A stretch of 42,357 nt of DNA from Segetibacter sp. (GTDB lineage: Bacteria; Bacteroidota; Bacteroidia; Chitinophagales; Chitinophagaceae), in NCBI GenBank assembly GCA_021154405.1, contig JAJKIP010000062.1, positions 1 through 42,357 of the forward strand, given 5' to 3'. Under the pieces are notes generated by a model. It worked only from the letters and a program-made list of their open reading frames with translations. It made no database searches and had not been told where the DNA came from. A program made the translations under genes and the position numbers. Positions 2,692 through 38,171 of the stretch are shown piece by piece. How positions within the stretch are numbered: position 1 is the stretch's first letter; each line of letters starts with the position of its first letter.

Positions 2692-4176
2692 ATGAAAAAA
2701 ATATTTGTAACAGGATTTATAATCACCATTGCGGCTTTAGCAGGTTGTAAAAAGCAACTGACCACAAAACCAATTGGATTATTGACCCTGGATCAGGTAA
2801 ATGCTGCGCCTACATTGAACACGGTAGAAACGGCTGTCAGCTCATCCTATGAACTGCTATCAAGCAGGTTGAATATATTGGCAGAGTGGGATTGGGGTGG
2901 AGGTCTTGTTTTCCAAAATGATTATATCCTGCAGGATATTGCTTCTGATGATATGGAAAAAAAATGGAGCCCTGATGGTGACCAGCCCTGGATGGATGAA
3001 ATCAACAATTTCACCTTTACTTCAACCAACGGCGGTCCAAATGGTTTATGGAAATATGACTATGAAGGAATAAAAAGGATCAATTTGGCTATCAGCTTTC
3101 TGACAAAGGCCGATATAGAAGCAATTACAGGAATAACTACTGCAAGAAAAAATCAATTGCTGGGAGAAGCCTATTTTTTACGTTCTTATTATTATTTCTC
3201 CCTGGTGACCAATTTTGGAGATGTGCCCTTGATCCTTTCACCGGTAAAAACTTACCAGGAAGCTTTTGAGGTAGCGGTAAGAGCTGATAAAAACGTTGTA
3301 TGGGACAGGATAAAAGCCGATCTGGCATTGGCAAAACCGTTGTTGCCCGCTTCAAAGTACTCTTCTGCTACAGAAAAATGGAGAGTTTCCAAAGGTGCAG
3401 TAATCGCACTCCAGGCAAAGGCTGCTTTGTATACACAAAAGTGGAATGAGGTAATAACCCTTGTTACGGAACTGGAAGCACTTGGTTTCTATTCTTTGAA
3501 CGCCAATTATTTCAGCAGTTTTAATACGTCCACTGAATTTGCAGAGAACGAAGATATTTTTCTGTATGATCATCAAAGCAATCAAACTCCAAGAAGAGGT
3601 GATGGACTTTGTGCGCCACTGGATTGGGGCTTTTTTGCACCCAGCACTGATTTTTTGAATTCATTTGAAGCAAATGATCCAAGAAAATTATATACTGTAG
3701 ATGTACCCAATAAAAATGTAAACAAGTTGTTGGGTAGTTTAAATGGAACATTCAAAGGAAATGATGATGCTCCTACCAATAAAATATACATGCGCATGGC
3801 TGATGCATTGCTTTGGAAAGCGGAAGCGTATATCGAAACATCGAATTTTCCCGCTGCAATAGCAATCATTAACCAGATAAGAGCAAGAGCCAGGAATACA
3901 GTGACCGCAACCGGTGGCACAGTTCCCGCAGGCACATTGCCAGACAGGCCTGCATCAACGGATAAAGCGACTGTCAAAGCATGGTTAATATCTGAAAGAA
4001 GAGCAGAGTTGGGATTTGAATCCCAAAGAATGCTGGATTTAAAAAGATGGGGAATTGCAAAATCCGTTATGACAGCCCATGGAAAAGCTTTCCAGGACAA
4101 ACATTATCTATATCCCATTCCACAGGGAGAAATAGATGCGTCTGCAGGTACGTTGACACAAAACCCAGGATATTGA
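2692..4176 (+). CDS. RagB/SusD-family nutrient-binding outer-membrane lipoprotein
   Basis: This is a 494-residue surface lipoprotein that forms the lid on the SusC channel encoded just upstream and binds glycan. It starts with a lipoprotein signal (MKKIFVTGFII, then the lipobox LAGC with Cys near residue 19). It contains SusD/TPR features: LLGEAYFLRSYYYFSLV, in which the ARFLRA-like motif of the family is recognisable, and the C-terminal RAELGFESQRMLDLKRWG and YLYPIPQGEID motifs, which are typical of the SusD C-terminal domain. The protein ends LTQNPGY, the usual SusD ending. The gap to susC is 36 bp and to the GH130 gene about 40 bp, so co-transcription is likely. At 494 residues it is normal for the family. 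The ligand is unknown. Confidence 0.96.
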   Translation: MKKIFVTGFIITIAALAGCKKQLTTKPIGLLTLDQVNAAPTLNTVETAVSSSYELLSSRLNILAEWDWGGGLVFQNDYILQDIASDDMEKKWSPDGDQPWMDEINNFTFTSTNGGPNGLWKYDYEGIKRINLAISFLTKADIEAITGITTARKNQLLGEAYFLRSYYYFSLVTNFGDVPLILSPVKTYQEAFEVAVRADKNVVWDRIKADLALAKPLLPASKYSSATEKWRVSKGAVIALQAKAALYTQKWNEVITLVTELEALGFYSLNANYFSSFNTSTEFAENEDIFLYDHQSNQTPRRGDGLCAPLDWGFFAPSTDFLNSFEANDPRKLYTVDVPNKNVNKLLGSLNGTFKGNDDAPTNKIYMRMADALLWKAEAYIETSNFPAAIAIINQIRARARNTVTATGGTVPAGTLPDRPASTDKATVKAWLISERRAELGFESQRMLDLKRWGIAKSVMTAHGKAFQDKHYLYPIPQGEIDASAGTLTQNPGY

Positions 4177-4216
4177 GTGAATAGCGATCAGTCACCTTAC
4201 CAAAATATATGTGCGG

Positions 4217-5284
4217 ATGAAAGACATAGCGAAACGGTTTGCTGAAAACCCATTACTGTCTCCGGCTGATCTTAAAGCCAGTGCCGATGGCCTTCAGATT
4301 ACCTGTCTCCTGAATCCCGGGGTATTTCGCTATGAAGACAAGACCTGGTTGATTATACGCGTGGCTGAAAGACCCGAACAAAAAGAGGATACCCTCTCTT
4401 TTCCCGTACTGACGGAATCCGGGGCAACCAGGATCATTGAAATTAAAAAGGATGATCCCGCATTAACAGCTACAGATGCCAGGGTGATTAATTACAAGGG
4501 TATTGATTACCTGACCACGCTATCGCATCTCCGTTTGCTTTGCAGTATTGACGGAATCCATTTTAATGAACCGGCCGGCTATCAAGCATTGATGGGGGAG
4601 GGAGTATTGCAAACATTTGGCATAGAAGATTGCAGGGTGATTTGGCTTGAAGATAAATATCATCTTACGTTTACGGCCGTATCGGATAATGGAGTAGGAG
4701 TAGGATTGCGTACTACTACCGATTGGAAAAAATTTAGATCGTACGGAATGATCCTGCCACCTCACAATAAAGACTGTGCCATTTTTGAAGAAAGGATAAA
4801 TGGATTATACTATGCGTTGCATCGCCCGAGCAGTGTAGATATCGGTGGTAATTATATCTGGCTGGCTTCATCGCCTGATGGTGTACACTGGGGGAATCAT
4901 CAATGCATTATAAAAACCCGAAAGGATAGCTGGGATAGTGCCAGAGTTGGAGCTGGCGCATCACCTATCAAAACAGAAAGGGGTTGGCTGGAAATTTATC
5001 ACGGTGCCAATGAGCAGCATCAATACTGTTTAGGCGCTTTTCTAGTTGACAGTAACGATCCCTCTAAAGTTATCGCACGTACGGAGAAACCTATTATGGT
5101 CCCTACTGCGGATTATGAGCGAAGCGGTTTTTTCGGTAACGTAGTATTTACTAATGGGCATACCATGAGTCCCGATGGGGATACTATCACGGTATATTAT
5201 GGCGCCTCTGACGAATTTGTTTGCGGGGCCAATTTTTCACTGAAAGAAATATTCTCACTATTAAAATATGATCATGCGCAATAA
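4217..5284 (+). CDS. GH130-family beta-mannoside phosphorylase or hydrolase-like protein
   Basis: This 355-residue protein has no signal peptide and so is probably cytoplasmic. It resembles GH130, a five-bladed beta-propeller family that phosphorolyses beta-mannosides (for example mannosyl-glucose, mannosyl-GlcNAc or mannan oligosaccharides) or in some subgroups hydrolyses them. Family signatures visible are LLNPGVFRYEDKTWLIIRVA near the N-terminus, FGIEDCRV (the family usually has EDPR; the Asp near residue 138 is the expected proton donor), NKDCAIFEERINGLYYALHRP-type phosphate/sugar-site residues in the middle, WDSARVGAGASPI, and GWLEIYHGA. A GTG codon at 4211 is in frame two codons earlier; I prefer ATG at 4217. 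It overlaps the MFS gene by 11-17 bp, which indicates translational coupling of import and intracellular cleavage. The subfamily, and hence phosphorylase versus hydrolase, cannot be settled by eye. Confidence 0.9.
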   Translation: MKDIAKRFAENPLLSPADLKASADGLQITCLLNPGVFRYEDKTWLIIRVAERPEQKEDTLSFPVLTESGATRIIEIKKDDPALTATDARVINYKGIDYLTTLSHLRLLCSIDGIHFNEPAGYQALMGEGVLQTFGIEDCRVIWLEDKYHLTFTAVSDNGVGVGLRTTTDWKKFRSYGMILPPHNKDCAIFEERINGLYYALHRPSSVDIGGNYIWLASSPDGVHWGNHQCIIKTRKDSWDSARVGAGASPIKTERGWLEIYHGANEQHQYCLGAFLVDSNDPSKVIARTEKPIMVPTADYERSGFFGNVVFTNGHTMSPDGDTITVYYGASDEFVCGANFSLKEIFSLLKYDHAQ

Positions 5285-6566
5285 ATTGAAAATAGAAATT
5301 GATCATTTTAACAGTCAGCCACGTAATTTCAGGATATTGATATTTACAAACCTGGTCTATGCCTTTGTATTGCCGGTGATAGATACTTTCGTGGCAGCAT
5401 ATATTATGCGAAACACGCATGGAGATATTACCAAGGTCGTCATTTACCAGCTCACCATTTACACCGGAATACCGCTCACTTTCTTATTGAATGGCTGGCT
5501 ATTAAAACATTTTGATATCCGGAAATTGTATTCGGCAGGCATGATGCTTAGTGGCGTATCGATGATAGTAATGATGTCTTTAAAAGAGCTTGATGTGGTG
5601 GGAATTGGTGTGGCGGGCATGATCATGGGACTAAGTTTTGGTTTTTATTGGGCAAACAGGGATTTTTTGGCCCTGTCCATAACCAATGATAATAACCGGA
5701 ATTATTATTACGGGATGGAAATGCTGTTTTATACCATTATTTCCGTGCTTATTCCGATTACTATAGGCTTATTTATCGATTCCCAGATCAGTGACAACCA
5801 GAAACATACCGCCTATATAATTATTACAGGCGTAGTATTTTTAATAACGGTTTTAGCTTCAATTGTTTGTTTCCGGGGTACTTTCAAAAACCCGGAACAG
5901 AAAAAATATATCTTTTTTAAATTTCATCCACTCTGGTATAAGTTATTGGCGCTGGCTACACTGAAAGGTTTGGCCCAGGGTTTTTTGGTGACAGCACCCG
6001 CTATGCTGATATTGCGTTTTTTTGGAAATGAAGGCGCACTGGGCTCTGCGGTGTCAATTGGAGCTGTTATCGCGGCAGGGATCATGTATGTGCTTGGACG
6101 GATCTCGAAACCATCGGACAGGATAAAAATATTTGCAGCTGGCCTTATTTTGTTTGCCATTGGCGCTGTAGTGAACGGTGTTTTATTTAGTCAGCCAGGA
6201 GTGGTAATATTTATTTTATTATTGTTAATAGCAAAACCTTTGCTGGATCTGGCGTATTTTCCTATACAATTCCAGGTAATTGATATTGTAAGTAAGATCG
6301 AGAAAAGAAGTGAATTTGCCTATATCCTCAATCATGAGGCTGGATTGTATGTTGGCCGGTTTTCAGGTGCAGCAACTTTTTTGATCATGGCCCGTTACGG
6401 TTCAGCGGAAATTGCCCTGAGGTATGCTGTAATAATCATTGCAGGGTTGCAACTTTGTTCCATATTTGTCGCCCGGAAAATAATTCAGCAGGGAAAAGAG
6501 TTTTTCCACCAGGAAGTGCCAGTTAATATGAAAGTAATCTCCGAGGTGTTACAAGCGCCTTTATAA
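5268..6566 (+). CDS. Major facilitator superfamily (MFS) transporter, probable oligosaccharide importer
   Basis: This 432-residue integral membrane protein has about 12 hydrophobic helices, starting with FRILIFTNLVYAFVLPVIDTF and ending around residue 405, followed by a short hydrophilic tail. That is the expected size and layout of an MFS carrier. The start codon lies inside the end of the GH130 gene (ATG at 5268, or a second in-frame ATG at 5274). Bacteroidota mannoside and N-glycan PULs often pair a GH130 enzyme with an MFS carrier that brings the disaccharide across the inner membrane, and this arrangement fits here. The substrate is inferred only from context. The basic loop QKKYIFFKFHPLWYK near mid-protein is consistent with the long cytoplasmic loop between helices 6 and 7. 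Confidence 0.9.
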   Translation: MIMRNKLKIEIDHFNSQPRNFRILIFTNLVYAFVLPVIDTFVAAYIMRNTHGDITKVVIYQLTIYTGIPLTFLLNGWLLKHFDIRKLYSAGMMLSGVSMIVMMSLKELDVVGIGVAGMIMGLSFGFYWANRDFLALSITNDNNRNYYYGMEMLFYTIISVLIPITIGLFIDSQISDNQKHTAYIIITGVVFLITVLASIVCFRGTFKNPEQKKYIFFKFHPLWYKLLALATLKGLAQGFLVTAPAMLILRFFGNEGALGSAVSIGAVIAAGIMYVLGRISKPSDRIKIFAAGLILFAIGAVVNGVLFSQPGVVIFILLLLIAKPLLDLAYFPIQFQVIDIVSKIEKRSEFAYILNHEAGLYVGRFSGAATFLIMARYGSAEIALRYAVIIIAGLQLCSIFVARKIIQQGKEFFHQEVPVNMKVISEVLQAPL

Positions 6567-6615: not shown

Positions 6616-8343
6616 ATGAAAAATAGTTTAACGATAATGTTCGCCTTCCTGCTTTTTGCAGGTTGTAAAGAACCCGCCGCCATTCCGGTTAAGCAGCAAA
6701 ATCTGGCGCGTGTAGACCAGATGCCGGATCTGCCACAGCCTTTGCAAATAATAGACTATAAAAAACTGGCCCTTCGTTTCGACAGCACAGTGTATGACTT
6801 TAACGCCAGTGGAAGATTCTGGCCGATAATATGGAAAGATAGCAGTAATAAGAATTATGCTCAAATGGTAGTGGGTTTATATACCGCTATCGGCGATGTC
6901 CGCCAGGGCCCGGCCAATAACAATGGGATGTTTCACGAAGCTCTTGCAACGATGGGCGCCGTAATGGGTGCGAGTTTGGTTGGCATAGACAAAAGCAATC
7001 AAAAGGGTCTTGATTATGTGAACATGTTGAAGAATTATTTTAACAGTGAAACCGGCTGGGATATCATGATGAATAACACATGCCCCGAAGTTGCGCTGCT
7101 GGGCGGGGGTTATGGGCGTGATTGGTGGTATGATGTATATCCTAACTTATTGTTTTATGCCATCTGCGATCTGTATCCGGATCACCCGGGATTTGATGAT
7201 ATGGCCAGGCGGATTGCCGATAAATTTTTCGAAGCCGATTCCATTTTGAATGGCAATTACGATTACTCCTATTTTGATTATGGGAAGATGCAACCTGTGA
7301 AGAATCAGATCTGCGCCCAGCCTGATGCAGCTGCGGGTCATGCCTGGGTTTTATATGCCGCGTATAAAAAATTTGGCGACCCAAGGTATCTCCGTGGAGC
7401 TTTGAGTGCCTTAGCTGCCTTGCAATCTCAACCATTAAACCCTACTTACGAGCTTTTGATGCCGTTCGGAGCTTATTTAGCTGCAAGAGTAAATGCGGAA
7501 CAGGGGAAAAAATATGATGTCAAAAAAATGCTCGAGTGGACATTTGATGGCACTCCCGTTTGTCGCGAAGGATGGGGTGTTTTGACAGGCAATTGGAATG
7601 GTTTTGATATATCCGGGATAGTAGGAAGCACGGTTGATCATGGAGGGTATGGATTTTTAATGAACACATATGATGCTGCCTGGCCGTTGCTGCCAATGGT
7701 CCGATATGATCAATCCCTTGCAAATGCAATTGGTAAATGGATGCTGAATGCGGCCAATGCATCGCGTTTTTTTTATCCTGCTTATATGCCTGATGAACAT
7801 GAAACTATTCCGCAACTTGCAATAGTTACTAAAGGTGTTATAGCTTATGAAGGAATGGTGCGAAAATCAACACAGCAGCAACATGAAAACCTGTCGGGAC
7901 CAGTTGCTCAGGGCGACGGTCCTCTATGGGTGCCAGGTAAAAACCCTGAGGAAACCCAATTCAGCGTATATGGAAGCGCTCACGTTGGGATCTTCGGAAG
8001 TATTATTCATACTACTGAGGTGCCTGGAATTTTACAGTTAAATTTACTGGCTACAGATTTCTATCACGACAGGGCGTGGCCAACTTATTTGTATTATAAT
8101 CCATATAATGAAAATAAATTGGTAACCATGAGCATCATGATTGGTCAAAATACGGACCTGTATGATATCATATCCGGGAAGATTATTGCCCGCAATGCCT
8201 CAGGTTCTGTGCAGATAGAACTTCCCGCCAAAAACTCTGCGGTAATTGTATGCGTGCCAGGGGGAGCCAAAGTGACTTATACAGCAAACAAAATGCTTGT
8301 GAATGACATTGTAGTGGATTACAATTTTCAACGTAAAAAATAG
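6616..8343 (+). CDS. PUL-encoded lipoprotein of unknown function, likely alpha-helical-barrel carbohydrate-active protein
   Basis: This is a 575-residue predicted lipoprotein, with signal MKNSLTIMFAFLLFAGC and lipobox FAGC. I do not recognise a named family. The body is rich in aromatic and acidic motifs typical of (alpha/alpha)6-barrel glycosidases or lyases: ASGRFWPIIW, GMFHEALATMGAVMGASLVG, a Gly-rich GGGYGRDWWYDVYPNLLF, helical repeats such as GHAWVLYAAYKKFGDPRYL (a pattern seen in six-hairpin enzymes), and CREGWGVLTGNWNGFDISG. The last 70 or so residues look like a beta-sandwich tail (LYDIISGKIIAR ... SAVIVCVPGGAKV), again common in such enzymes. It lies 49 bp after the MFS gene on the same strand, so it probably belongs to this PUL. 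Exported localisation would place it upstream of the MFS step. A short hairpin follows at 8363-8377. Confidence 0.85.
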   Translation: MKNSLTIMFAFLLFAGCKEPAAIPVKQQNLARVDQMPDLPQPLQIIDYKKLALRFDSTVYDFNASGRFWPIIWKDSSNKNYAQMVVGLYTAIGDVRQGPANNNGMFHEALATMGAVMGASLVGIDKSNQKGLDYVNMLKNYFNSETGWDIMMNNTCPEVALLGGGYGRDWWYDVYPNLLFYAICDLYPDHPGFDDMARRIADKFFEADSILNGNYDYSYFDYGKMQPVKNQICAQPDAAAGHAWVLYAAYKKFGDPRYLRGALSALAALQSQPLNPTYELLMPFGAYLAARVNAEQGKKYDVKKMLEWTFDGTPVCREGWGVLTGNWNGFDISGIVGSTVDHGGYGFLMNTYDAAWPLLPMVRYDQSLANAIGKWMLNAANASRFFYPAYMPDEHETIPQLAIVTKGVIAYEGMVRKSTQQQHENLSGPVAQGDGPLWVPGKNPEETQFSVYGSAHVGIFGSIIHTTEVPGILQLNLLATDFYHDRAWPTYLYYNPYNENKLVTMSIMIGQNTDLYDIISGKIIARNASGSVQIELPAKNSAVIVCVPGGAKVTYTANKMLVNDIVVDYNFQRKK

Positions 8344-8366: not shown

Positions 8367-10604
8367 TTAAAAAGGAATTCCAAAATTTGCAGAAGTAAGG
8401 ATCTTCTTTGACTGTTCACACCAGGCTGCGCTGAATTCCAATGGTCCTATTGGAGTATTATAGGCAAATACAATGGCATGCCCGGTTAACCAGTTATCCA
8501 ACTGTAAGTGACGGTCCCTGCTCTTAAAATTATTCACCAGCGCATTTGATTTTGCCATTAGGTAAGTGTTCTTTGATAACTGAAAGTTTAGACCAAACAT
8601 TAAAGCTGCAACGCTTGGAGTACTGATAGTAGTTTCATCCAGCCCGGCAAAAAGCACCTGGTTCCTTATTGTTTTTGTCAATCCTCCAATCTGGAAATTG
8701 TTTACCAGATTTTGTTTGTAATTAAAATTGACTCCCGATTGTAATAATATTTGAAACACAAATCGTTTTGAAAGCGGCATATATGCTTCCAGATTGACCG
8801 TCCCCCGTTGATAATTATCGTAATTAATACCGAGTGAATCCAGATTTGTTATTGGAATGCCGTTAGAAGAGAATGTCGCCCTGGGATTTTGATTATAAAC
8901 TACCCCAAACTCAGCATTTAGTTTGAATCCTCTTCTCGGATAGGTTCTTTTATCAAGCGTATTCGCATCGAAATAAACAAAAGAGGTAAAAAAATCGTTT
9001 TTCCCCTTTGCTTTCAGTCCAGTAAGTATGATGGGTTTAAAATCTATACGTTCATAGCGGGTGCCCATCCCGGATGTAAAATTGCGGCTACCTGAATATT
9101 GAGCTTTTATTTCACCGGTATAATACAATTGGCGGTATTGCCCGCTTTTGATAAAGCCTTCGTAAGTATTTGTCTTAAAATTCTCTAATTGAAACTTTGG
9201 AATAACAGCAATATTTTTCCGCAGACCAAAATACTGCAGGTGCTCACCTCTCAGGCGGGTATTTTCACCAATGCTGAATGTGGCTGAGCTTCTTGAATAA
9301 TGAAAAAGAAAATCTCGGGTTGTAAGGTTGGTAATGACGCTTATCCCTGAGAACTCATTATAATGCAGTCCCAGTTTGGCATATGCAGAAGGGTTCTCCT
9401 TTACCATAAAAACTATTTTGGAGGAGTTGTCTGGTTGAGGTTCCAAAATATAATTAATGCTGCTGTAGTAACGAGTGCCATATACACGCCTGATCAATTT
9501 TGAAATACCAGCCTCTGACCAGGATCTGTTTGATTGGAAACCCATGGCATGCAGGAAGAATGCTTTCGTTGTTTTGTCGAGGCCCGTTATTTCATAACCG
9601 CTGATGAATATTGAATCAGAGACAGGCAGCCTTTCTGCCTGGAAGGGTACCGTACCGTATTTTTCATTCAGGGAATCTGCAAGGTGTTTTAAGGCAGGAT
9701 ATAATTTTCTGCCTTCTTCCAGTCCAATATCAATTAATTTTTTTGCACTGTTGAAGCTGCCCATTGAATATTCTTCAACTGGCTGGGCAACATATATATC
9801 ACAAAGCGGGATTTCAATTTTATGATCGTCAGCTTCTTTGAAAAAAGCCAGTTGGAGTAAAATGTCCAAAGCAGAACTTAACTTTTCTTTGGGCGATAAT
9901 CCTGCGGTAACATTGCTTCCAATGACCATATCAGCGCCCATTTCTTTTACATCTTTTACCGGGAAGTTTCTTACAAGACCTCCGTCTACCAGTTTATAGC
10001 CTTTGTATTCTACAGCCGTAAATACTGAAGGAATAGCCATGCTGGCCCTGATAGCAGTGGTAATATCGCCATTGTCCAGCACTACTGCCTGCCCGGTTGA
10101 AATATCTGTAGCAATACACTTGAATGGGATAGAGAGCTTATTAAAATCTTTTATTTTTTGAACAGGATAAAATAGTTCAGAGAACTTAAATGATAATTCC
10201 TGCCCCTCCAAAAATCCACCTGGCAATCTGAGCTTATGATTGGTATAGGGTAATTCAATGGCATATTTCCCATATTCTTCCTTTTCTTCCATGGATAATG
10301 AACGCAGGGAAAGTTGATTACTTAATAAAATATCCCAATCTATTTTACGCGCAATCTTTTCAATCTGGTCTCCTGAATAACCGGCGGCGTACAAAGACCC
10401 AATAATGGCACCCATGCTGGTGCCTGTTATATAATCGATCTTTAAGCCGGCAGAATCTATGGCCTTGAGAATGCCAATATGTGCCAGTCCCTTTGCTCCG
10501 CCACCACTTAACGTCAGTCCGATTTTCGGACGAGGGGTTGTTTGCTGGGCACTTATAGTTATTACTATAAAACAGGGAATAAACAGGGCGAAGAAATATC
10601 TCAT
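8367..10604 (-). CDS. Patatin-like phospholipase fused to a C-terminal outer-membrane beta-barrel
   Basis: This 745-residue protein has a signal peptide (MRYFFALFIPCFIVITISAQ). The patatin domain spans about residues 27-250 and carries the oxyanion motif SGGGAKG (34-39 region), the nucleophile motif GTSMG (Ser63) and the DGG of the catalytic dyad (Asp207 in KLVDGGLVRNFPV). A short POTRA-like linker lies around 330-400 and the rest is a BamA/surface-antigen-type barrel, with alternating strands and a final strand ending SANFGIPF. The same architecture is known for PlpD-type (type Vd) secreted phospholipases, where the barrel carries the lipase across the outer membrane; many Bacteroidota homologues are simply called patatin-like proteins. 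It is convergent with the PUL lipoprotein (23 bp apart) and divergent from the NHL gene. It is catalytically intact by motif. Confidence 0.94.
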   Translation of the reverse strand: MRYFFALFIPCFIVITISAQQTTPRPKIGLTLSGGGAKGLAHIGILKAIDSAGLKIDYITGTSMGAIIGSLYAAGYSGDQIEKIARKIDWDILLSNQLSLRSLSMEEKEEYGKYAIELPYTNHKLRLPGGFLEGQELSFKFSELFYPVQKIKDFNKLSIPFKCIATDISTGQAVVLDNGDITTAIRASMAIPSVFTAVEYKGYKLVDGGLVRNFPVKDVKEMGADMVIGSNVTAGLSPKEKLSSALDILLQLAFFKEADDHKIEIPLCDIYVAQPVEEYSMGSFNSAKKLIDIGLEEGRKLYPALKHLADSLNEKYGTVPFQAERLPVSDSIFISGYEITGLDKTTKAFFLHAMGFQSNRSWSEAGISKLIRRVYGTRYYSSINYILEPQPDNSSKIVFMVKENPSAYAKLGLHYNEFSGISVITNLTTRDFLFHYSRSSATFSIGENTRLRGEHLQYFGLRKNIAVIPKFQLENFKTNTYEGFIKSGQYRQLYYTGEIKAQYSGSRNFTSGMGTRYERIDFKPIILTGLKAKGKNDFFTSFVYFDANTLDKRTYPRRGFKLNAEFGVVYNQNPRATFSSNGIPITNLDSLGINYDNYQRGTVNLEAYMPLSKRFVFQILLQSGVNFNYKQNLVNNFQIGGLTKTIRNQVLFAGLDETTISTPSVAALMFGLNFQLSKNTYLMAKSNALVNNFKSRDRHLQLDNWLTGHAIVFAYNTPIGPLEFSAAWCEQSKKILTSANFGIPF

Positions 10605-11940: not shown

Positions 11941-14109
11941 ATGAAAATCCTGCGATATTTTGCATCATTCAGCCGTTTGGCAAGTATCAGTCTGCTTTTG
12001 TTTTGTAATTCCACCCGCTCATTTGCCCAGCATCCACAATCGCCGAAGGAATGCGGTACCATGCAAATGTTGGAACAGGCCTTTGAATTAACCCCTTCAC
12101 TGAAAACAGAATTTACCCATCAGACGATACAATTTCAGAGGGCGGTTGAAAGGCAAATGACGGGACTTCCTTTTTCTGACCTTCCGGCGGGCACTGTATT
12201 TATACCCATTGTATTTCATATTGTCCTTAACAATCCGGATATAATAACAGATGCTCAGGTGCAGGCACAGTTAGATGTATTAAACAAAGATTTTGGAGGG
12301 ATGAACAGTGATTCTGTAATGTTGCCTGCTGTATTTAAACCCTTATTCGGCAAAAGTCAGATCCAATTCAAACTGGCAAAACGTACACCAGACAATGAAC
12401 CCACTAACGGCATTGTACGAACTATTACCACAACACCGCTCTATGGTACATTAGACAAATCGCTTAAATACAGTAAACTGGGCGGAGATGATTCCTGGGA
12501 TTCAAACCGCTATTTTAACGTATGGGTCACTAATCTGGCCGGTGGTTTTATTTTAGGCTATTCAACTTTTCCGGGTACCAGCCCACCTGACGAGGAAGGA
12601 GTGGTGATTCATTATACAACACTGCCTGCTGATAGCCTGACTAAATACAACAGGGGTCGTACGTTAACGCATGAGACTGGCCATTTTTTTTACCTGTACC
12701 ATATCTGGGGTGATGAAAATGGTTGTACAGGAACTGATTTTGTTGATGATACTCCCAATCAGGGATCTTTTTCAGGTAATTGCCCGGGTGGAGCAATAAT
12801 CACAGATGGTTGCAGTCCTTTTAGTCCAGGCATCCTTTATGAAAATTATATGGATTATACAGATGATGCCTGTATGTGCCTGTTTACGAAAGGACAGGAT
12901 ACCCGTATGGAAACGGCTTTAACCAGTTTCCATCCAGGGTATTTGACTTCAAATGGCGCTGAACCTGTAGCATTATTTAGTCTGGATGCTACAATTAAGA
13001 AAATTATTGCCCCTGCACAACGGACCTGCGCTTCCAATTTTTCACCAGTTATCCGATTGCGCAACCGTGGAACCCAGCCATTATTATCAGCAGATGTTTA
13101 CGCCAGCCTGGATAACGGTACTGTAACTAGTACCCATTGGACGGGTTCATTAACAAGACTTGAGGAGATAAATGTATCGCTCAATGCCATGAGTGTTACT
13201 ACGGCAGGCAGCCATGTTTTAAAATTTATAGTCGCATCACCCAACGGCAGCATAGACCAGAATACTATCAATGACACCATTACCAGTACTTTTCAATATT
13301 ATCCGGCAGTTCCAGGCGCCTTTACTGAAGGATTTGAAAGCAATATTTTCCCTTCTGATGGTTGGGATATTATTAATTCAGATGATAGTACTACCTGGAG
13401 GCGGGTAACAGGCGTGGCAAAAACTGGAAATGCATCTGTAATGATGCATAATTTTAATTACCAGTTATATGGTCAGAAGGATTTTCTCCGGTTGCCGGTA
13501 ATTAATATTTCTAATGCAGATTCAGCTTTTCTCACATTCCAGGTTGCTGCTGCTGTTAGGAGTAATTCCCGGCCTGGACAATATTGGGACAGTTTACAGG
13601 TATTGATCAGCACTGATTGTGGGGCCACTTACTTCAGCCTTTATAAAAAATGGGGAACGTTCCTTAGTACAACAAATAGTCCTTCGCCAGCTTCCTTTGT
13701 GCCAGGACCATCTGAATGGCGGAAAGATTCCGTTGATCTTTCCAGCTATATTAACGTTGGTCCAATCCTCCTGGCTTTTATGAATACAACAGCCAATGAG
13801 AATAATATTTATCTTGATGATATTGCTATTTATAAAACCAGTATTAATCCGAACCTGGTATCACAAGGCTTTTTGGTTACGCCGAATCCGGCCACAAACG
13901 TGATAACAGTACAATTTTATCCTTATCCGGTCTCCTTAAAAAAAATTGTTCTGTATAATACCGCAGGACAAAAGATAGCAGAACAACCAGCTAAGTGGAA
14001 CGGTTCAGGCAGGTTCAGCTTTAATATTAGCCACTTAGCCAATGGTATATACTTTGTTCAGGCAATTTTTGGCGATAAGCAACTTACCAGGAAGGTGATT
14101 AAGCGATAG
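11941..14109 (+). CDS. Secreted M43-family (pappalysin/cytophagalysin-like) zinc metalloprotease with T9SS sorting domain
   Basis: This 722-residue exported protease has a signal peptide of about 30 residues ending FAQ. The metzincin-type zinc site is HETGHFFYLYH, with His244, Glu245, His248 and His254, followed by IWGD. The family's downstream ENYMDYTDDACMCLFTKGQ region supplies the Met-turn. The eighth position of the site, Gly in most metzincins and often Asn in Bacteroidota M43 proteins, is Tyr here. A middle region (about 330-460) is Ig/CARDB-like, followed by a jelly-roll-like segment around 460-630. The last 80 or so residues, from VTPNPATNVITVQF to QLTRKVIKR, form a type A T9SS C-terminal sorting domain, so the protein should be exported across the outer membrane by T9SS. 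Substrate unknown. Confidence 0.93.
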   Translation: MKILRYFASFSRLASISLLLFCNSTRSFAQHPQSPKECGTMQMLEQAFELTPSLKTEFTHQTIQFQRAVERQMTGLPFSDLPAGTVFIPIVFHIVLNNPDIITDAQVQAQLDVLNKDFGGMNSDSVMLPAVFKPLFGKSQIQFKLAKRTPDNEPTNGIVRTITTTPLYGTLDKSLKYSKLGGDDSWDSNRYFNVWVTNLAGGFILGYSTFPGTSPPDEEGVVIHYTTLPADSLTKYNRGRTLTHETGHFFYLYHIWGDENGCTGTDFVDDTPNQGSFSGNCPGGAIITDGCSPFSPGILYENYMDYTDDACMCLFTKGQDTRMETALTSFHPGYLTSNGAEPVALFSLDATIKKIIAPAQRTCASNFSPVIRLRNRGTQPLLSADVYASLDNGTVTSTHWTGSLTRLEEINVSLNAMSVTTAGSHVLKFIVASPNGSIDQNTINDTITSTFQYYPAVPGAFTEGFESNIFPSDGWDIINSDDSTTWRRVTGVAKTGNASVMMHNFNYQLYGQKDFLRLPVINISNADSAFLTFQVAAAVRSNSRPGQYWDSLQVLISTDCGATYFSLYKKWGTFLSTTNSPSPASFVPGPSEWRKDSVDLSSYINVGPILLAFMNTTANENNIYLDDIAIYKTSINPNLVSQGFLVTPNPATNVITVQFYPYPVSLKKIVLYNTAGQKIAEQPAKWNGSGRFSFNISHLANGIYFVQAIFGDKQLTRKVIKR

Positions 14110-15033: not shown

Positions 15034-16443
15034 GTGAACACCTGTTTCAAAAGTATAGCTCTGATAATCGCTGGTTCATTAGCCATTAATCAATTGTATT
15101 CAATTTCTATTTACTCTTCTGAGCCAATAACAGGCTACCTGGAGAAGGAACTTTATATCCCGCCTAAAGTATATCGTGTTCCGGAAAACAATGACTATAA
15201 AAATGATACCAGTGAGTATAATTTCAAGCGAATGGTGCAGTCAGATAATATCGCCTTATTCTGGTCAAAAGAATTTGGACAGGATCCGATGGCAAATCCG
15301 GATTCGATGAAAAGATTCAGGATCGACGAAGCATTAAAAGAACTGGAACGGTTTTATAATTTCTATGTCAATGATCTGAAGTTTGTAGAAAAAGGAAAAT
15401 CCCTTACTGATAAATATAAAGCCCTTCTTTATGTAATAGGTGGAAAAGGCGGTACTGCCTTTGGTGGAGGAGCAGAAGACAAAATTGGGGTATTATGGAC
15501 GCCAGCTTCCAGAATGAATAAAGCTCCTTATGGCGCGTTAGCCCATGAACTGGGACATTCCTTTCAATACCTGGTTAAAGCAGATGGCGCATGGGCCTTC
15601 ACATCTGCACCGGAGGGAAGCAGGGGTCAATCGATCTTTGAAATGACATCCCAGTATATGCTATGGCAGGTATATCCTGAGTGGATGACATTTGAAAACT
15701 ATCACCTGAAAGATTTCATGAAGCAGACGCACTATGCATTTCTTCATGAGATCAACCAGTATCATTCTCCTTATGTACTCGAATACTGGTCTAATAAACA
15801 TGGTATTGATTTCATGGGTAAGCTTTGGCGCAATGCTACAAAAGGGGAAGATCCTGTTATGACTTACAAGCGACTCACTTCTATTAATCAGGAGCAATTC
15901 AACGATGAAATATTTGATGCTGCCCGCAGATTCATTACCTGGGATATGCCACGTATTGAAAAAGTGGCTGCCAAATATGCCAATCAGCATTTTTCAAAAC
16001 TGGATTCCGCAGGAGCGGGCTGGTACAGGATCAGTAAAAACAATTGTCCGCAGAATTATGGCTATAATGGTATTAAACTAAAAGTGCCAAAAGCAGGCAC
16101 TAAAGTGACACTGGATTTCAAAGGGATCGCAGGTGCAGAAGGCTTCCGTTCGGTTAAGGTTGAAAAGGCAGGGTGGCGTTATGGATTCCTTGCAGTAAAA
16201 GAAGATGGCAGCCGTGAATACGGAAAAGCATATTCCAATAAAGAAGGTAAGATCAAATTCAAAGTGCCTAAAAGGACTGCCTTCCTATGGCTGGTAGTTA
16301 GTGGCGCTCCAACTGAACATTGGGAACATATTTCAGATGGTAAAGACGAAAATGATGAGCAATGGCCTTACCAGATCAGACTTTCGGGTACTGCTTTAGA
16401 TGATACAATGATCAATCAGGGTGCCATCAGCATGGCACCCTGA
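15034..16443 (+). CDS. Secreted HExxH protein resembling DUF6055
   Basis: This 469-residue exported protein is read from a GTG start; an in-frame stop at 15013 leaves no upstream ATG. The signal peptide (VNTCFKSIALIIAGSLAINQ) is plausible. The sequence around IALFWSKEFGQDP, the Gly-rich KGGTAFGGGAEDKIGVLW and the zincin motif AHELGHSFQYLVKADG (His171, Glu172, His175) fits the DUF6055 family as I remember it. Members carry an HExxH helix and are presumed but not proven to be metallopeptidases. The C-terminal third (about 330-460) is a beta-rich domain with KVEKAGWRYGFLAVKEDGS and WLVVSGAPTEHW, reminiscent of a carbohydrate- or protein-binding sandwich. No T9SS domain is seen. The stop codon is inside a strong hairpin. 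Family name moderately sure; activity unknown. Confidence 0.85.
   Translation: MNTCFKSIALIIAGSLAINQLYSISIYSSEPITGYLEKELYIPPKVYRVPENNDYKNDTSEYNFKRMVQSDNIALFWSKEFGQDPMANPDSMKRFRIDEALKELERFYNFYVNDLKFVEKGKSLTDKYKALLYVIGGKGGTAFGGGAEDKIGVLWTPASRMNKAPYGALAHELGHSFQYLVKADGAWAFTSAPEGSRGQSIFEMTSQYMLWQVYPEWMTFENYHLKDFMKQTHYAFLHEINQYHSPYVLEYWSNKHGIDFMGKLWRNATKGEDPVMTYKRLTSINQEQFNDEIFDAARRFITWDMPRIEKVAAKYANQHFSKLDSAGAGWYRISKNNCPQNYGYNGIKLKVPKAGTKVTLDFKGIAGAEGFRSVKVEKAGWRYGFLAVKEDGSREYGKAYSNKEGKIKFKVPKRTAFLWLVVSGAPTEHWEHISDGKDENDEQWPYQIRLSGTALDDTMINQGAISMAP
16416..16443 (+). terminator. Strong hairpin overlapping the stop codon of the DUF6055-like gene
   Basis: A perfect 12-bp stem, TCAGGGTGCCAT and ATGGCACCCTGA, closes on a CAGC loop. 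The right arm contains the last codons and the TGA stop. Downstream is CTATAGAATTGTTTTCC, only a broken T-run, so it is a terminator-like structure rather than a textbook terminator. On the minus strand it also lies about 45 bp past the stop of the TonB-receptor gene, so it may act in both directions. Confidence 0.55.
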
Positions 16444-24123: not shown

Positions 24124-27100
24124 TTGCTGCGGAAAATTATTATTTGCCTGTGCCTGTTATTTTGCTGCCTTTGCGATCTCCGTGCTGCAGACCATCCCGT
24201 CAAATACCTCGGAATTGAACACGGGCTTTCCAATAATGCTGTTACCTCTATTTTTCAGGATAAGAAAGGATTTATGTGGTTTGGTACCTATGATGGTCTA
24301 AACCGCTATGATGGTTATAATTTTCAGGTATTCCGTAACAGGGTAGGAGACAGCAGTTCGCTCATCGGAAATGCAGTGTATACAATTGCCGGGGATTCCC
24401 GGGATAATTTATGGATTGGGGGACAAAAAGGTGCATGTGTTTTGGACTCCCTGCGCAAAAATTTTACTTCTCTCAGGTTCATCAGCGCCGATGCCAATAA
24501 GGAAGAATGGTTACGGGATGATATTCATAGTATAGTGGTCAACCGTAATGACGTCGTTTTGATCGGCACCAATCACCGTGGGTTAATCGTATTTGATAGG
24601 AATACTCGAACTGGTAAACAGATTGTTCTTCCGGCCGGTATGGGAGCAGCTTATGATGCAACTGCCATTGAAACAGATCCTTCAGGCACTCTTATCTGGA
24701 TTTTTGTACAGCAACGTGGACTCTTCCTTTTCAATCTTTCTACCCAAAAGCTTTCACTGTTAAACAGTGATATTAAAGAAGGCAATTGCCTGCGCCGTGC
24801 CAGTGATGGAAATCTCTGGCTGGGTAATGAACGCGGTCTCTTTGAATACAATATTCAGGCAAACCGGTATTCGGCCAATCGCATTGCTACCAACAGCAAA
24901 ATTGTTCACCTTAAAGAAGATAAGAATGGACTTTTATGGATTGCTTCCGATGGAGATGGTTTGCTGGTCATGAACAGGACAGATGTAAAAGCTCATGCCT
25001 TTTTAGCGTCTGATGGCAGTCAGCTTATCAACAGCAATGCCATTTACGCCATATATGAAGATATTGAAGGCCGGGAATGGATCGGTACTCTTAGAGGAGG
25101 CATCAATACAATTGAAGCTGCTCCTGATGCATTTCAACTGATCAATTTTGCACATTCAACTTATAAAAGCCCCGCAACCAATTTCATTCTCTCCTTTGCT
25201 GAAGACCGAAAAAACAATTTGTGGATAGGCACCGATGGTGCCGGGTTACGTTATTGGGACAGAGAAGCGAATCAATATTCAGAATATTTCCATTCAGAAA
25301 ACCCTGGTTCTGTCAGTAGCAATTTTATTACAAGTATTGTAAATGATGCTGATAACACTACCTGGGTTGCTACCTGGTTAGGTGGTATCAATCGCTTTGA
25401 TGCAGTTAAAAAGCAATTTGTAAAATACTTCTGCTATAATTCTGTAACCAGGGCATTGGAAAACAATATCTGGGTATTGTACCAGGACGCCTCGCAACGG
25501 TTATGGGCTGGAGCTACCAACGATGGGAGTCTGTATTTATATAATAAGCAGCGTGATCAGTTTGAGTTATTTGACAATAAGGTCAGGAACCTGCAGTGTA
25601 TGGCAGAAGACCGTAATGGAAATCTGTGGGGTGGCAATTACAATGACCTCATCAGGATTGACAGAATTAATAAGAAACATCAGGTTTATAATATTGGATA
25701 TACTATTCGGACTATTCATGAAGACAGTCGCAAAAGACTCTGGATAGGTACACAGGAAGGGGGATTATTGCTTTTTGATCGCGAAACCGGTAAATTCCAG
25801 CGATTTACCATGAGCGAAGGTCTTTCCAATAATACCGTTCTCCGGCTGCTGGAAGATGATAAAGGATTCTTATGGTTAAGCACCTTCAATGGCCTTTCCA
25901 GGTTTGATCCGGAGAAAAAAAGCTTTCGGAATTACTATCAGTCGGATGGTTTACAAAGTAATCAGTTCAGCTTTAATGCAGGCTTAGCACTCAATAAGGG
26001 GGAATTTGCCTTTGGCGGAATAAATGGATTCAATTTGTTTTACCCTGATAGCGTTCAGATCCATTCTTCCCAACCTAAATTATTCCTAACCGGTTTATTC
26101 ATTGATAATGCACCGGCAGATGATAATCCAAGGCAAATTTTGCCAACTACAGCAGATGGAATGCAGCAGATCAAAGTGCCCTTTGATCGTGCGGTACTTT
26201 CCTTAAACTTCCTCGCCCTGGATTATAGCAGTTCAGACAGGATCAGCTATGCTTATTACCTGGAAGGATGGGATAAGAGCTGGAATTATGTGGGCAATAT
26301 CAGAACAGCCAACTATTCCCGTCTGCAGGAAGGAAACTATTTATTTAAGGTAAAAGCCAAATCCCAGGATGGGAACTGGGGACCTGAAGCAACCCTTCTG
26401 CAAATCATTGTATTGCGGCCCTGGTACCGGACATGGTGGGCTTACACATCTTATGTATTGATCTTTGCAGTGGCCATATATTTATACCTGCTGTATTACC
26501 GCAGGCAGGAGCGTTTGAAATATGAAATTAAATTGGCCCACCTGGAAAATGAAAAGGACAAAGAACTCAATGAAAAAAAACTCTCATTTTTTACCAATAT
26601 CTCCCATGAATTCAGGAGCCCGCTTTCACTGATCATTAATCCGCTTAAGGATTTTTTGGCCAGGAAGAACGAAATCAGGAATGGGGACGATCTGAATATT
26701 GCCTATCGAAATGCAAGAAGGTTATTAAGCCTGGTAGATCAATTATTACTTTTCCGAAAAGCGGACAGCGGGGCCGATATATTAAAGGTATCCAGGTTTG
26801 ATATTATTCATCTCTGTAATGAAGTATACCAGTGTTTTGTGCAGCAGGCAAAGAACAGAGGAATGCAGTATGATTTCAATACGGAAATTGATAAGATAGA
26901 ATTATATGGCGATTACGAGAAAATTGAGATCGCCCTATTCAATTTGTTATCCAATGCTTTTAAATATACCAGCGATGGTGGCAAAATTGATATTAACGTA
27001 TACCAGGAAGGTGAGGTGGTGAAGATCCTTATCAAGGATACAGGTTGTGGTTTTGAGATGGCTGAAAGCAATCGCATTTTCGAGAAATTCCAGCAGGCTT

Positions 27101-28182
27101 CAAGTGTCCGGAGCCAGAAAGCAGGATTTGGTATTGGACTCTACCTGGTGAAACATTTTGTTGAAAGCCATAAAGGAACAATTTCCGTTGATAGTCAGCT
27201 GAACAGGGGAACGAGTTTTATCATTGCCCTCCCAACAGGAACCAAACATTTGCCTGCACAATATATCACGGATGATTCCGGGCAAGGTCATGCACTTTTG
27301 GATGAGCTTGTGGAGGAACCTGAATTGCCAGTTCCTGAATTGGCAGAAGAGGGTAGATCTGCGGATGAAACGGTTACTGAAAAGAAAACGCTGTTGATAG
27401 TGGATGATAACGCGGAGATCCGGGAATATATGCGACAGTTATTTGGTGAAAAGTATGTTTTATTTACGGCGGATAACGGCGATACCGCATTAACAATGGC
27501 CCTTAGGCATTTCCCTGACCTGATCATTTCTGATATCACCATGACAGGCATAGACGGTATCGAACTCTGTGCAAGAGTTAAGAAGTCAGAGCTCCTTGCC
27601 CATATCCCTGTTATATTGTTAACGGCCGCTTCTTCATCGGAAGTAAAATTGAAAGGTATTGAAGGCGGTGCAGATGATTATATCACCAAGCCGTTTGACA
27701 GCAAGCTTCTCCATGCCAGGGTTGATACCATTCTCAAGAACCGAAACAGGCTGCAGCGATACTTCTTTGATCATATTACCTTACAGGAATCTACGATCAA
27801 GGTACCGGCTGAATACCGCGACTTCCTCAAAGACTGCATCCGGGTGGTGGAAGAGAACCTGGACACAGAGGATTTTACCATTCTCAAATTCTCAAAGGCC
27901 ATGGGCATGAGCCGGTCTTCCCTTTACCAAAAGATCAAGAATATCTCTGGCCAATCACCGAATGCCTTTATACGCTCCATCCGGTTGCGTCGCGCTGCGG
28001 TCCTTATAATAAAGGAGAACATGAATGTAAACCAGGCTGCCTTCCAGGTAGGAATCGGGGATGCGCGCTATTTTCGAGAGCAGTTTACAAAGCTGTTTGG
28101 CATGACTCCTTCAGATTACCGGAAAAAATATCGCCAGCCATTTAGTGGCGAGATGAATTTATTAAGGCCTGAAACTGACTAA
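24124..28182 (+). CDS. Hybrid two-component system regulator (HTCS) of the downstream PUL
   Basis: This 1352-residue one-protein signalling chain has a signal peptide (LLRKIIICLCLLFCCLCDLRA). Two blocks of propeller repeats fill about 30-650 (KGFMWFGTYDGLNRYDGYNF and similar), followed by a Y_Y_Y domain at about 685-765 and a transmembrane helix at about 771-792. The kinase has HisKA FTNISHEFRSPLSLI (His828), HATPase NLLSNAFKYTSDGG, DTGCGFEM and FGIGLYLVKHF. A receiver at about 1088-1205 (LLIVDDNAEIREYM, acceptor Asp1137 in DLIISDITM) is followed by an AraC-type HTH at about 1245-1345 (FSKAMGMSRSSLYQKIK, GIGDARYFREQFTKLFG). HTCS proteins bind a signature oligosaccharide in the periplasm and activate their neighbouring susCD operon, here 95 bp or more downstream. 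The start is TTG: no in-frame ATG exists after the stop at 24085. Confidence 0.95.
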   Translation: MLRKIIICLCLLFCCLCDLRAADHPVKYLGIEHGLSNNAVTSIFQDKKGFMWFGTYDGLNRYDGYNFQVFRNRVGDSSSLIGNAVYTIAGDSRDNLWIGGQKGACVLDSLRKNFTSLRFISADANKEEWLRDDIHSIVVNRNDVVLIGTNHRGLIVFDRNTRTGKQIVLPAGMGAAYDATAIETDPSGTLIWIFVQQRGLFLFNLSTQKLSLLNSDIKEGNCLRRASDGNLWLGNERGLFEYNIQANRYSANRIATNSKIVHLKEDKNGLLWIASDGDGLLVMNRTDVKAHAFLASDGSQLINSNAIYAIYEDIEGREWIGTLRGGINTIEAAPDAFQLINFAHSTYKSPATNFILSFAEDRKNNLWIGTDGAGLRYWDREANQYSEYFHSENPGSVSSNFITSIVNDADNTTWVATWLGGINRFDAVKKQFVKYFCYNSVTRALENNIWVLYQDASQRLWAGATNDGSLYLYNKQRDQFELFDNKVRNLQCMAEDRNGNLWGGNYNDLIRIDRINKKHQVYNIGYTIRTIHEDSRKRLWIGTQEGGLLLFDRETGKFQRFTMSEGLSNNTVLRLLEDDKGFLWLSTFNGLSRFDPEKKSFRNYYQSDGLQSNQFSFNAGLALNKGEFAFGGINGFNLFYPDSVQIHSSQPKLFLTGLFIDNAPADDNPRQILPTTADGMQQIKVPFDRAVLSLNFLALDYSSSDRISYAYYLEGWDKSWNYVGNIRTANYSRLQEGNYLFKVKAKSQDGNWGPEATLLQIIVLRPWYRTWWAYTSYVLIFAVAIYLYLLYYRRQERLKYEIKLAHLENEKDKELNEKKLSFFTNISHEFRSPLSLIINPLKDFLARKNEIRNGDDLNIAYRNARRLLSLVDQLLLFRKADSGADILKVSRFDIIHLCNEVYQCFVQQAKNRGMQYDFNTEIDKIELYGDYEKIEIALFNLLSNAFKYTSDGGKIDINVYQEGEVVKILIKDTGCGFEMAESNRIFEKFQQASSVRSQKAGFGIGLYLVKHFVESHKGTISVDSQLNRGTSFIIALPTGTKHLPAQYITDDSGQGHALLDELVEEPELPVPELAEEGRSADETVTEKKTLLIVDDNAEIREYMRQLFGEKYVLFTADNGDTALTMALRHFPDLIISDITMTGIDGIELCARVKKSELLAHIPVILLTAASSSEVKLKGIEGGADDYITKPFDSKLLHARVDTILKNRNRLQRYFFDHITLQESTIKVPAEYRDFLKDCIRVVEENLDTEDFTILKFSKAMGMSRSSLYQKIKNISGQSPNAFIRSIRLRRAAVLIIKENMNVNQAAFQVGIGDARYFREQFTKLFGMTPSDYRKKYRQPFSGEMNLLRPETD

Positions 28183-28297
28183 TCGATAATTTACCCCCCT
28201 CATTTTACCAATTTACCGCCGGTTCCAACCACCTCTGCGCTTCTACCTTAGTTGTGACAACCGACTAATCTGTTAAATGCAGGAAAGCATTCATCAG

Positions 28298-28315
28298 ATT
28301 ATTACTAGTAATAAT
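28298..28315. promoter_or_regulatory. Perfect 18-bp palindrome ATTATTACTAGTAATAAT upstream of susC
   Basis: The 18 bases are exactly self-complementary and end 21 bp before the preferred susC ATG (28337), on the promoter side of a PUL operon whose HTCS regulator lies immediately upstream. It could be the HTCS or another regulator's operator, or the leader hairpin of the susC mRNA. Its presence argues against the longer ORF start at 28277. Confidence 0.5.
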
Positions 28316-28336
28316 ATAAATAATTGCCTTGCTATT

Positions 28337-31432: not shown

Positions 31433-31452
31433 TTGCTTAATACTATTATAAT

Positions 31453-33147: not shown

Positions 33148-33195
33148 TGAATCGTTTTTTTTCGATACAGCAGTTTTAAGCAAAGCAACATGTAC

Positions 33196-33225
33196 AAATA
33201 AGAACCGGCAACGGTTCTTATTTTT
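33196..33225 (+). terminator. Intrinsic terminator between susD and the GH30-like gene
   Basis: A perfect 12-bp stem, AAATAAGAACCG (33196-33207) and CGGTTCTTATTT (33212-33223), closes on a GCAA tetraloop. The stem runs into five Ts (33221-33225). It lies 48 bp after the susD stop and 35 bp before the GH30-like start, inside what otherwise looks like one operon. Confidence 0.9.
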
Positions 33226-33260
33226 CTCATTTCCTTGTGATAACTTAATAGAAAATTATA

Positions 33261-34820: not shown

Positions 34821-34849
34821 TGCTTGCGCAAACCAAAATATGACCATTA

Positions 34850-38170: not shown

Positions 38171-38171
38171 G

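Follow-up and report, generated by a model that had tools for sequence, protein, structure and literature searches.

A protein family unnamed in Pfam and NCBIfam that accompanies GH130 genes in Bacteroidota: possible exported enzymes of beta-1,2-mannan breakdown

Introduction

For beta-1,2-mannosides, phosphorylases and a mannosidase type are already known, according to the available text of three publications: the 2014 report by Chiku on beta-1,2-oligomannan phosphorylases (PMC4264767), the 2015 report by Cuskin on beta-1,2-mannosidases (PMC4599007), and a review of phosphorylases (PMC8950772). The available part of the first names Candida, Leishmania and its relatives, and several O-antigens as sources of beta-1,2-mannan, and reports the Thermoanaerobacter Teth514_1788/1789 cluster with a GH5 gene and genes for two hypothetical proteins (PMC4264767). 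In the part of the review that is available, Uhgb_MS is a mixed-linkage synthase that has beta-1,2-mannobiose among its products and also uses alpha-1,2-mannobiose, and TM1225 is listed in a table as a beta-1,4 enzyme (PMC8950772). A further paper, in its available text, mentions GH130 for comparison only (PMC8626586). Among the titles and abstract openings covered by our literature search, with subscription journals mostly outside it, we found no enzyme described as acting outside the cytoplasm to cut beta-1,2-mannan chains.

Here we describe a gene of Segetibacter sp. that lies beside genes for a SusC/SusD pair, a GH130 protein and an MFS transporter. The stretch of DNA analysed, 42,357 nucleotides from contig JAJKIP010000062.1, is called the window, and the product of the gene is called the target; L and G numbers denote loci and genomes. 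The family of the target, its predicted fold, its leader, its locus partners and the assignment of the GH130 protein come from computation. Our best explanation of these observations, to which we give a little less than an even chance, is that the target founds an unnamed family of exported glycoside hydrolases and cuts beta-1,2-mannan, supplying mannobiose to the MFS transporter and the GH130 enzyme.

Results

A preliminary description of this DNA had placed a 575-residue lipoprotein at positions 6616-8343 of the window (forward strand), at the end of a susCD-GH130-MFS operon. The gene is real: the open frame encodes 575 amino acids with 0 internal stops, the longest antisense open frame is 99 codons, and comparison with an 80%-identical homologue (L022) shows differences spread 81/56/276 over the three codon positions, mostly in the third. 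Upstream on the same strand lie a partial gene for a SusC-like TonB-dependent outer-membrane transporter (1-2655; Pfam TonB_dep_Rec_b-barrel, 1.4e-25, and Plug, 1.2e-12) and genes for a SusD-like glycan-binding protein (2692-4176; Pfam SusD_RagB, 3.2e-28), a GH130 protein that is probably a beta-1,2-mannobiose phosphorylase (4211-5284; Pfam GH130, 8.9e-44; PDB Uhgb_MS, 1.3e-153, and Lin0857, 3.1e-85) and an MFS transporter (5268-6566; Pfam MFS_1, 3.7e-13), the last separated from the target gene by 49 bp. The SusC gene has lost its 5' end at the contig start, as the window begins at base 1 of the contig. The next gene downstream, which Pfam annotates as encoding a patatin/OMP85 protein (8367-10604), is on the strand opposite to the target. 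The target gene closes the operon, and the adjoining SusC/SusD genes with their catabolic partners make this a polysaccharide utilization locus. Sequence, model and loci taken together lead us to annotate 6616-8343 as an exported (alpha/alpha)6 protein and predicted beta-1,2-mannan-cutting glycoside hydrolase.

The target sequence opens with a signal peptide (6616-6666, forward strand) bearing a lipobox-like FAGC at residues 14-17, which places the cysteine at Cys17 and F at the -3 position. Lipidation may hold for the target itself, but it does not extend to the family, in which the type of leader varies: a loosely defined lipobox pattern was seen in 24 of the 79 members, the leaders of many others end in AQ, and many of those without the pattern resemble ordinary signal peptides. 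Judged by these patterns, a leader is a common trait of the family and lipidation is not.

Elsewhere, the window holds a second glycan locus (24124-39989) with genes for a hybrid two-component regulator, a SusC-like protein, a SusD protein, a GH30-like protein, a 1106-aa FG-GAP/UnbV_ASPIC protein and a GH35 protein. It also encodes a DUF6055 protein (15034-16443; E 6.8e-156) and, near it, a T9SS-tailed metallopeptidase of M43 type (11941-14109).

The family set comprised 83 sequences, all cut at 640 residues and reduced to 79 alignment rows by removal of identical rows; a 30-residue match (L079) and a wrong-strand open reading frame (of L075) were left out before counting. No named family had been recognised for the target from its sequence, and searches of Pfam and NCBIfam with profile models agree, having given nothing above cutoff. 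Searches of the PDB, both with the target sequence and with the alignment profile, found no relative of the toroid described below; every profile match below E 0.1 lies in a LamG, PKD or T9SS tail of a long paralogue. Matches of the target to FAS_I_H (0.005) and LB_053 (0.036) were rejected as below cutoff, and its PDB sequence matches (alpha-hemolysin at E 0.1, others weaker) look like chance. When 44 aligned members were scanned singly against Pfam (E<=10, 23 families matched in all, ten members rescanned), nothing rose above noise except LamG, PKD/Ig and T9SS regions, all in three long paralogues, and PF03663, the GH76 family, was absent from the 23. D-glucuronyl C5-epimerase (PF06662), matched weakly in 18 of the 44 (best E 0.0014), was rejected because it stayed below the Pfam cutoff; the signal, which in six of the ten rescanned members came from sub-cutoff stretches of 30-34 residues, is a repeat motif of ~30 residues located where the only weak match in the GH76 comparison also falls.

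Membership of three toroid families was considered with hhalign and rejected: the probability was 3.4% over 26 columns for GH76 (for which PF03663 also gave no match), 3.5% for GH88 (PF07470 members) and 1.0% for GH144 (PF10091 members), compared with 45% for GH76 versus GH88 in the same set-up, and each profile consisted of 15 rows, so small that a distant tie could escape it. At the level of sequence, the reading of a new family, unnamed in Pfam and NCBIfam, is supported.

An AlphaFold2 model of the target, built from 44 aligned sequences (mean pLDDT 92.3, pTM 0.92), predicts a helical toroid at residues ~46-486 (6751-8073, forward strand) followed by nine strands that form, by DSSP, a small all-beta C-terminal domain at residues ~490-575 (8083-8340, forward strand). 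This confident prediction agrees with the (alpha/alpha)6 barrel and beta tail that had been proposed earlier. Comparison of the model with six-hairpin glycosidases, which had also been suggested, returned GH76-type enzymes, MmpH and GH88 as the best among those listed. The best VIA-align row is BT_3782 (Z 22.0), titled a putative glycosylhydrolase, which we take to be a GH76 enzyme. It is followed by entries titled GH76 (21.2, 21.0 and 20.7), MmpH (19.9) and further GH76 entries (19.8-18.9), the eight best rows, from Z 22.0 to ~18.9, thus being six titled GH76, BT_3782 and MmpH; the ninth, a GH88 entry at Z 18.8, is about level with the eighth. The toroid characteristic of GH76 is present in the model, as Z 21.2 to 6u4z, an entry titled GH76, indicates. 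GH144 is not among the best 50 VIA-align rows, an absence that excludes nothing. Foldseek's own list, led by GH127, was given little weight because its matches have TM ~0.3 and rmsd near 16. As modelled, the likeness to GH76 is a resemblance of fold only.

The catalytic hallmark of GH76 is a conserved adjacent Asp-Asp pair, and titles in the PDB mention variants at D136/D137 and D163/D164. No pair of neighbouring columns is acidic in >=70% of the 79 rows of the target family, and the sole DD of the target (residues 194-195) is not conserved. E108, E279, E412 and D434, all within the toroid, are found in every one of the 79 rows; D331, D481 and D169 are nearly invariant, and D173 is Asp or Glu. 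In the secondary structure of the model, E108, D169-D173 and E279 lie at or just before the starts of long helices, and toroid enzymes tend to place their active sites at or near helix starts. We regard E108, E279, E412 and D434 as candidate active residues.

The genome from which the window comes has one copy of the target. With that genome counted in both samples, 294 genomes of its taxonomic family include 21 with a match, and 395 genomes of the phylum include 19. In genome_contigs the target is present at 40 loci, all from Bacteroidota as far as titles tell, and since the search there relied on six peptide patterns taken from the window protein, it picks up close relatives only. A tree of the 79 members contrasts a short form of ~570 aa with a long form of ~1,050 aa, and the long-form members examined add domains of Ig/PKD and laminin-G-like type as well as a tail for T9SS sorting. 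One Flavobacterium locus has a second target copy (L023:5753-7474), 37% identical, beside the operon copy; it groups in the tree with the targets of the BT3780-type loci described below.

A functional tie between the target and GH130 had been proposed from the window alone, and it is borne out in other genomes: of 37 Bacteroidota genomes that carry the target (20 from the family sample and 18 from the phylum sample, one shared, the window's genome excluded), 33 encode a GH130 protein (PF04041) no more than 10 kb from it, where chance would give 0.48. No probability is quoted for this count, because relatives share ancestry and the genomes are not independent. In G054 and G071 the contig extends at least 10 kb from the target yet shows no GH130 in that range, and in G435 and G643, where no GH130 is seen, the contigs end near the target; a nearby GH130 is missing from 4 of the 40 genome_contigs loci (L043, L046, L050, L051).

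Gene order was compared over 78 loci, in which the labels for regulator, SusC, SusD, MFS, GH13 and LamG are BLAST best matches, with Pfam applied to examples only. These loci include second copies of one species (L022/L158, L031/L167, L038/L171), and two are counted as misses: L110, where the target is uncalled because of an overlapping open reading frame, and L113, which has no full-length target. GH130 is found in 68 of the 78, the adjacency GH130-MFS-target in 58, and SusC-SusD ahead of that trio in 49, where a LamG gene or a 430-aa gene may intervene. The whole string regulator-SusC-SusD-(LamG)-GH130-MFS-target occurs in 33, the regulator being a hybrid two-component protein in the one locus in which it was identified by Pfam (L115). 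In 24 of these 33 loci no GH13 gene follows the target, which makes the target the string's sole candidate for an exported enzyme.

The partners of the target change across the family. Five loci have GH130-MFS-target ahead of SusC-SusD (L053, L054, L055, L057, L111), and the first three of these add a long, T9SS-tailed paralogue of the target. Most long-form loci examined contain genes of a binding-protein-dependent ABC transporter (by Pfam in L107, L108, L109), accompanied by two sizes of GH130, 300 and ~480 residues, and by a GH2 (by Pfam in L107, L116, L119); L109 and L118 have a window-type GH130 and SusCD besides this ABC-type set. A short-form target is combined with a BT3780-type GH130, SusCD and a different MFS in L114 and L122. 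The GH130 link is present on both deep branches of the tree while the partners change, and transporters and kinds of GH130 differ between target subclades. This variety of partners is a stronger point than the co-location count.

Window-type GH130 genes (E<=1e-60) occur in 25 phylum-sample genomes besides the window's own, 9 with the target and 16 without it. As a contrast set we used 17 neighbourhoods of such genes away from the target, from 15 of the 16 target-less genomes (not G488) and from second copies in G598 and G661. In none of the 17, of which L187 had its upstream part masked, is there a homologue of either the window's MFS or the target, and therefore the version equipped for uptake goes with the target. 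One of them, L181, has a divergent SusC/SusD pair. The lone window-type GH130 genes (L172-L188), which are 38-77% identical and apart from any target or MFS homologue, look as if they serve an internal beta-1,2-mannoside pool.

Three further genes recur around the target. A protein of 811-834 aa is encoded directly ahead of SusC in ten loci (L024:305-2782, L031, L036, L037, L039, L042, L044, L049, L052, L061; the L031 copy, cut by the contig end, has 543 aa). The L024 copy has no Pfam or NCBIfam match, and a predicted model of this ~825-aa neighbour is too poor to read because its pLDDT is 57.9; it is possibly another unnamed enzyme. A GH13 gene whose product is near oligo-1,6-glucosidases/alpha-glucosidases directly follows the target in 10 of the 78 loci (for example L025:11732-13372 and L053:17516-19141). 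A family of ~430 aa occurs in GH130-target clusters (L107:7104-8381, L108, L109, L110, L113, L117, L119, L121, L168); it is related to YPO2471 (7tem; E 2.3e-92) and, in its L107 and L168 copies, has no Pfam match. The predicted model of the target also aligns to 7tem (Z 17.5).

We then compared the GH130 proteins with enzymes of known linkage. In the PDB, the window's GH130 matches Uhgb_MS (9erh) at 515 bits and Lin0857 (5b0p) at 290 bits, versus 149 bits for TM1225 and at most 98 bits for other beta-1,4 enzymes; two Thermoanaerobacter-type beta-1,2 entries, at 158 and 149 bits, come no nearer than TM1225. Because the window's GH130 stands far nearer to enzymes of beta-1,2-mannobiose than to those of beta-1,4 linkage, the disaccharide expected is beta-1,2-mannobiose, and the earlier suggestion that the MFS transporter imports a disaccharide for the GH130 can be sharpened to that sugar (515 and 290 versus at most 149 bits).

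Sixteen GH130 proteins, picked to cover the locus types and not at random, were scanned with NCBIfam, as were three controls from elsewhere in target-bearing genomes. The window's GH130 scores 383.6 bits with BtaManbiosPhlase, under the cutoff of 550, and the five window-type GH130s, which include this one and two that come from long-form loci, range over 384-434 bits. Four 300-residue GH130s score 230-253 and five 480-residue GH130s 146-167, and the GH130s of L114 and L122 pass the BT3780 beta-1,2-mannosidase cutoff (641.8 and 648.9 versus 550). The controls score 163, ~75 and 172 bits, with the same three best models as the GH130s of target loci. PDB matching covered two of the controls, both of beta-1,4 type: L219 (Uhgb_MP at 694 bits versus Lin0857 at 125) and L220 (mannosylglucose phosphorylase at 571 bits); L221 was scanned with NCBIfam only. 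We rejected the idea that every neighbouring GH130 is beta-1,2 by its best NCBIfam model, since beta-1,4-type controls match the same models best and the best model therefore says nothing on linkage. The NCBIfam entry BtaManbiosPhlase, as listed, names no linkage, and weight was placed on the height of the score, the PDB margins and the BT3780 cutoff. The beta-1,2/mannobiose models NF050092, NF052550 and NF058598, which beta-1,4-type GH130s match best at scores far below cutoff, are a trap for best-match annotation of GH130s.

In the ABC-type locus L107, the 300-residue GH130 matches Lin0857 at 193 bits versus TM1225 at 161, and the protein of the 480-residue type matches 1,2-oligomannan phosphorylase at 135 bits versus TM1225 at 94. 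For the 480-residue type, the PDB thus leans towards 1,2 and NCBIfam does no better than with controls, and the GH2 proteins of ABC-type loci have mannosidase-type domains that would suit beta-1,4-mannosides. By sequence likeness, then, beta-1,2 linkage appears clear for GH130s of the window type, with two from long-form loci included, and of the BT3780 type. It is likely for those of 300 residues and weakly indicated for the ABC-transporter loci overall. The substrate of the target would be beta-mannosides, most likely beta-1,2.

Discussion

Given that the predicted fold of the target is like that of mannan hydrolases and that its gene usually adjoins genes of enzymes for beta-linked mannose, in most cases with the rare beta-1,2 link, the target is probably the missing first chain-cutting enzyme. 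Its catalysis, the linkage it would cut, its endo or exo mode and its active residues we infer from the computed evidence. The roles of SusCD, MFS and GH130 proteins are established knowledge of those families, and on our reading they would be joined as follows. The substrate would be a beta-1,2-linked mannan, or a glycan with beta-1,2-mannosyl chains, that SusC and SusD would take across the outer membrane. The target, in the periplasm or on the surface, would cut it to beta-1,2-mannobiose, which the MFS transporter would move into the cytoplasm for phosphorolysis by the GH130 to alpha-mannose-1-phosphate and mannose. In L053, L054 and L055, the long T9SS-tailed paralogue could cut first, outside the cell. 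A wider proposal, that the targets are a family of beta-1,2-mannanases in a dedicated, 'mannogen'-like utilisation of beta-1,2-mannan (SusCD/MFS or ABC transporters with GH130) across Bacteroidota, is plausible but more tentative.

Several findings count against beta-1,2-mannan. Linkage is weakly indicated in the ABC-type loci, whose GH2 proteins would suit beta-1,4-mannosides; Uhgb_MS, a mixed-linkage synthase, also uses alpha-1,2-mannobiose (PMC8950772); some genomes and loci have the target but no GH130 nearby; the nearest folds cut alpha-mannans; and a pure beta-1,2-mannan leaves unexplained the GH13 gene found directly after the target at 10 of the 78 loci. The folds bear on the main rival to a beta-1,2-mannosyl substrate, an alpha-mannan with beta-1,2 caps: the target would cut an alpha-mannosidic link as GH76 enzymes do, freeing beta-1,2-capped alpha-mannooligosaccharides, for example from a Candida-type mannan, and the cytoplasmic GH130 would remove the cap. 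However, linkage is not fixed by fold class, and GH92, the usual alpha-mannosidase of alpha-mannan loci, lies within 10 kb of the target in at least one of 38 genomes (G225, among the places listed), while 33 of the 38 carry GH92 somewhere. What the available text of two publications adds is favourable to the capped alpha-mannan: Uhgb_MS is credited with making beta-Man-1,2 on alpha-1,2-mannotriose as well (PMC8950772), and BT3780 belongs to a yeast-mannan locus (PMC4599007). We judge this substrate unlikely, though it deserves to be taken seriously.

The GH13 proteins, being near oligo-1,6-glucosidases/alpha-glucosidases, fit better with some other mannose polysaccharide, one option being a heteropolysaccharide whose alpha-glucosyl parts the GH13 would handle and the other, for the ABC-type loci, a differently linked beta-mannan. 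The unannotated ~825-aa protein that precedes SusC in 10 loci, and the combination of GH2 with GH130s of uncertain linkage in ABC-type loci, point the same way. Yet the GH13 gene and the 825-aa gene are each missing from 68 of the 78 loci, GH130 is found in 68 of 78, and the window-type and BT3780-type GH130s appear clearly beta-1,2, and we judge such a substrate slightly less likely than the capped alpha-mannan. More improbable still is that the target is a non-hydrolase on the same toroid, such as a glycan-binding protein, an epimerase or a lyase. Sugar 2-epimerases and unsaturated glucuronyl hydrolases do share the fold class (Z 16-19), but the target has a leader peptide, its acids and aromatics are strictly conserved over 79 rows, and the string of 24 loci offers no other exported enzyme candidate.

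If the target does cut beta-1,2-mannan, the family would supply the first step of the pathway and possibly a tool to trim Candida-type beta-1,2-mannosides. It would also point to a glycan with overlooked turnover, and beta-1,2-mannan would be commoner in the environment, perhaps as a bacterial reserve too, than its few known sources suggest.

Among known systems, the target is closest in fold to the GH76 endo-alpha-1,6-mannanases (Bt3792, 4c1s; BT2949, 4v1s; Bacillus Aman6), which have the (alpha/alpha)6 toroid predicted for it; GH76-titled entries align to the model at Z 21.2-17.7 over 284-328 residues with 6-11% identity. Unlike them, it has no PF03663 match, a profile probability of 3.4%, no conserved adjacent acid pair and an extra C-terminal beta domain, and GH92 is rarely near it among the places listed. 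MmpH, the methylmannose polysaccharide hydrolase (7qsj), shares the fold (Z 19.9 over 306 residues) and is mannan-acting by its title, but it is mycobacterial and 9% identical to the target. The GH144 endo-beta-1,2-glucanases are toroid enzymes that cut beta-1,2-glucan, and the target has no profile similarity to them (1.0% probability). As a pathway, the ABC-type target loci resemble the Thermoanaerobacter beta-1,2-oligomannan system of Teth514_1788/1789, which, in the available text, likewise combines an ABC transporter with two GH130 phosphorylases (PMC4264767). Uhgb_MS (9erh) and Lin0857 (5b0p) are the closest solved relatives of the window's GH130, and they correspond to pathway partners of the target, not to relatives of it.
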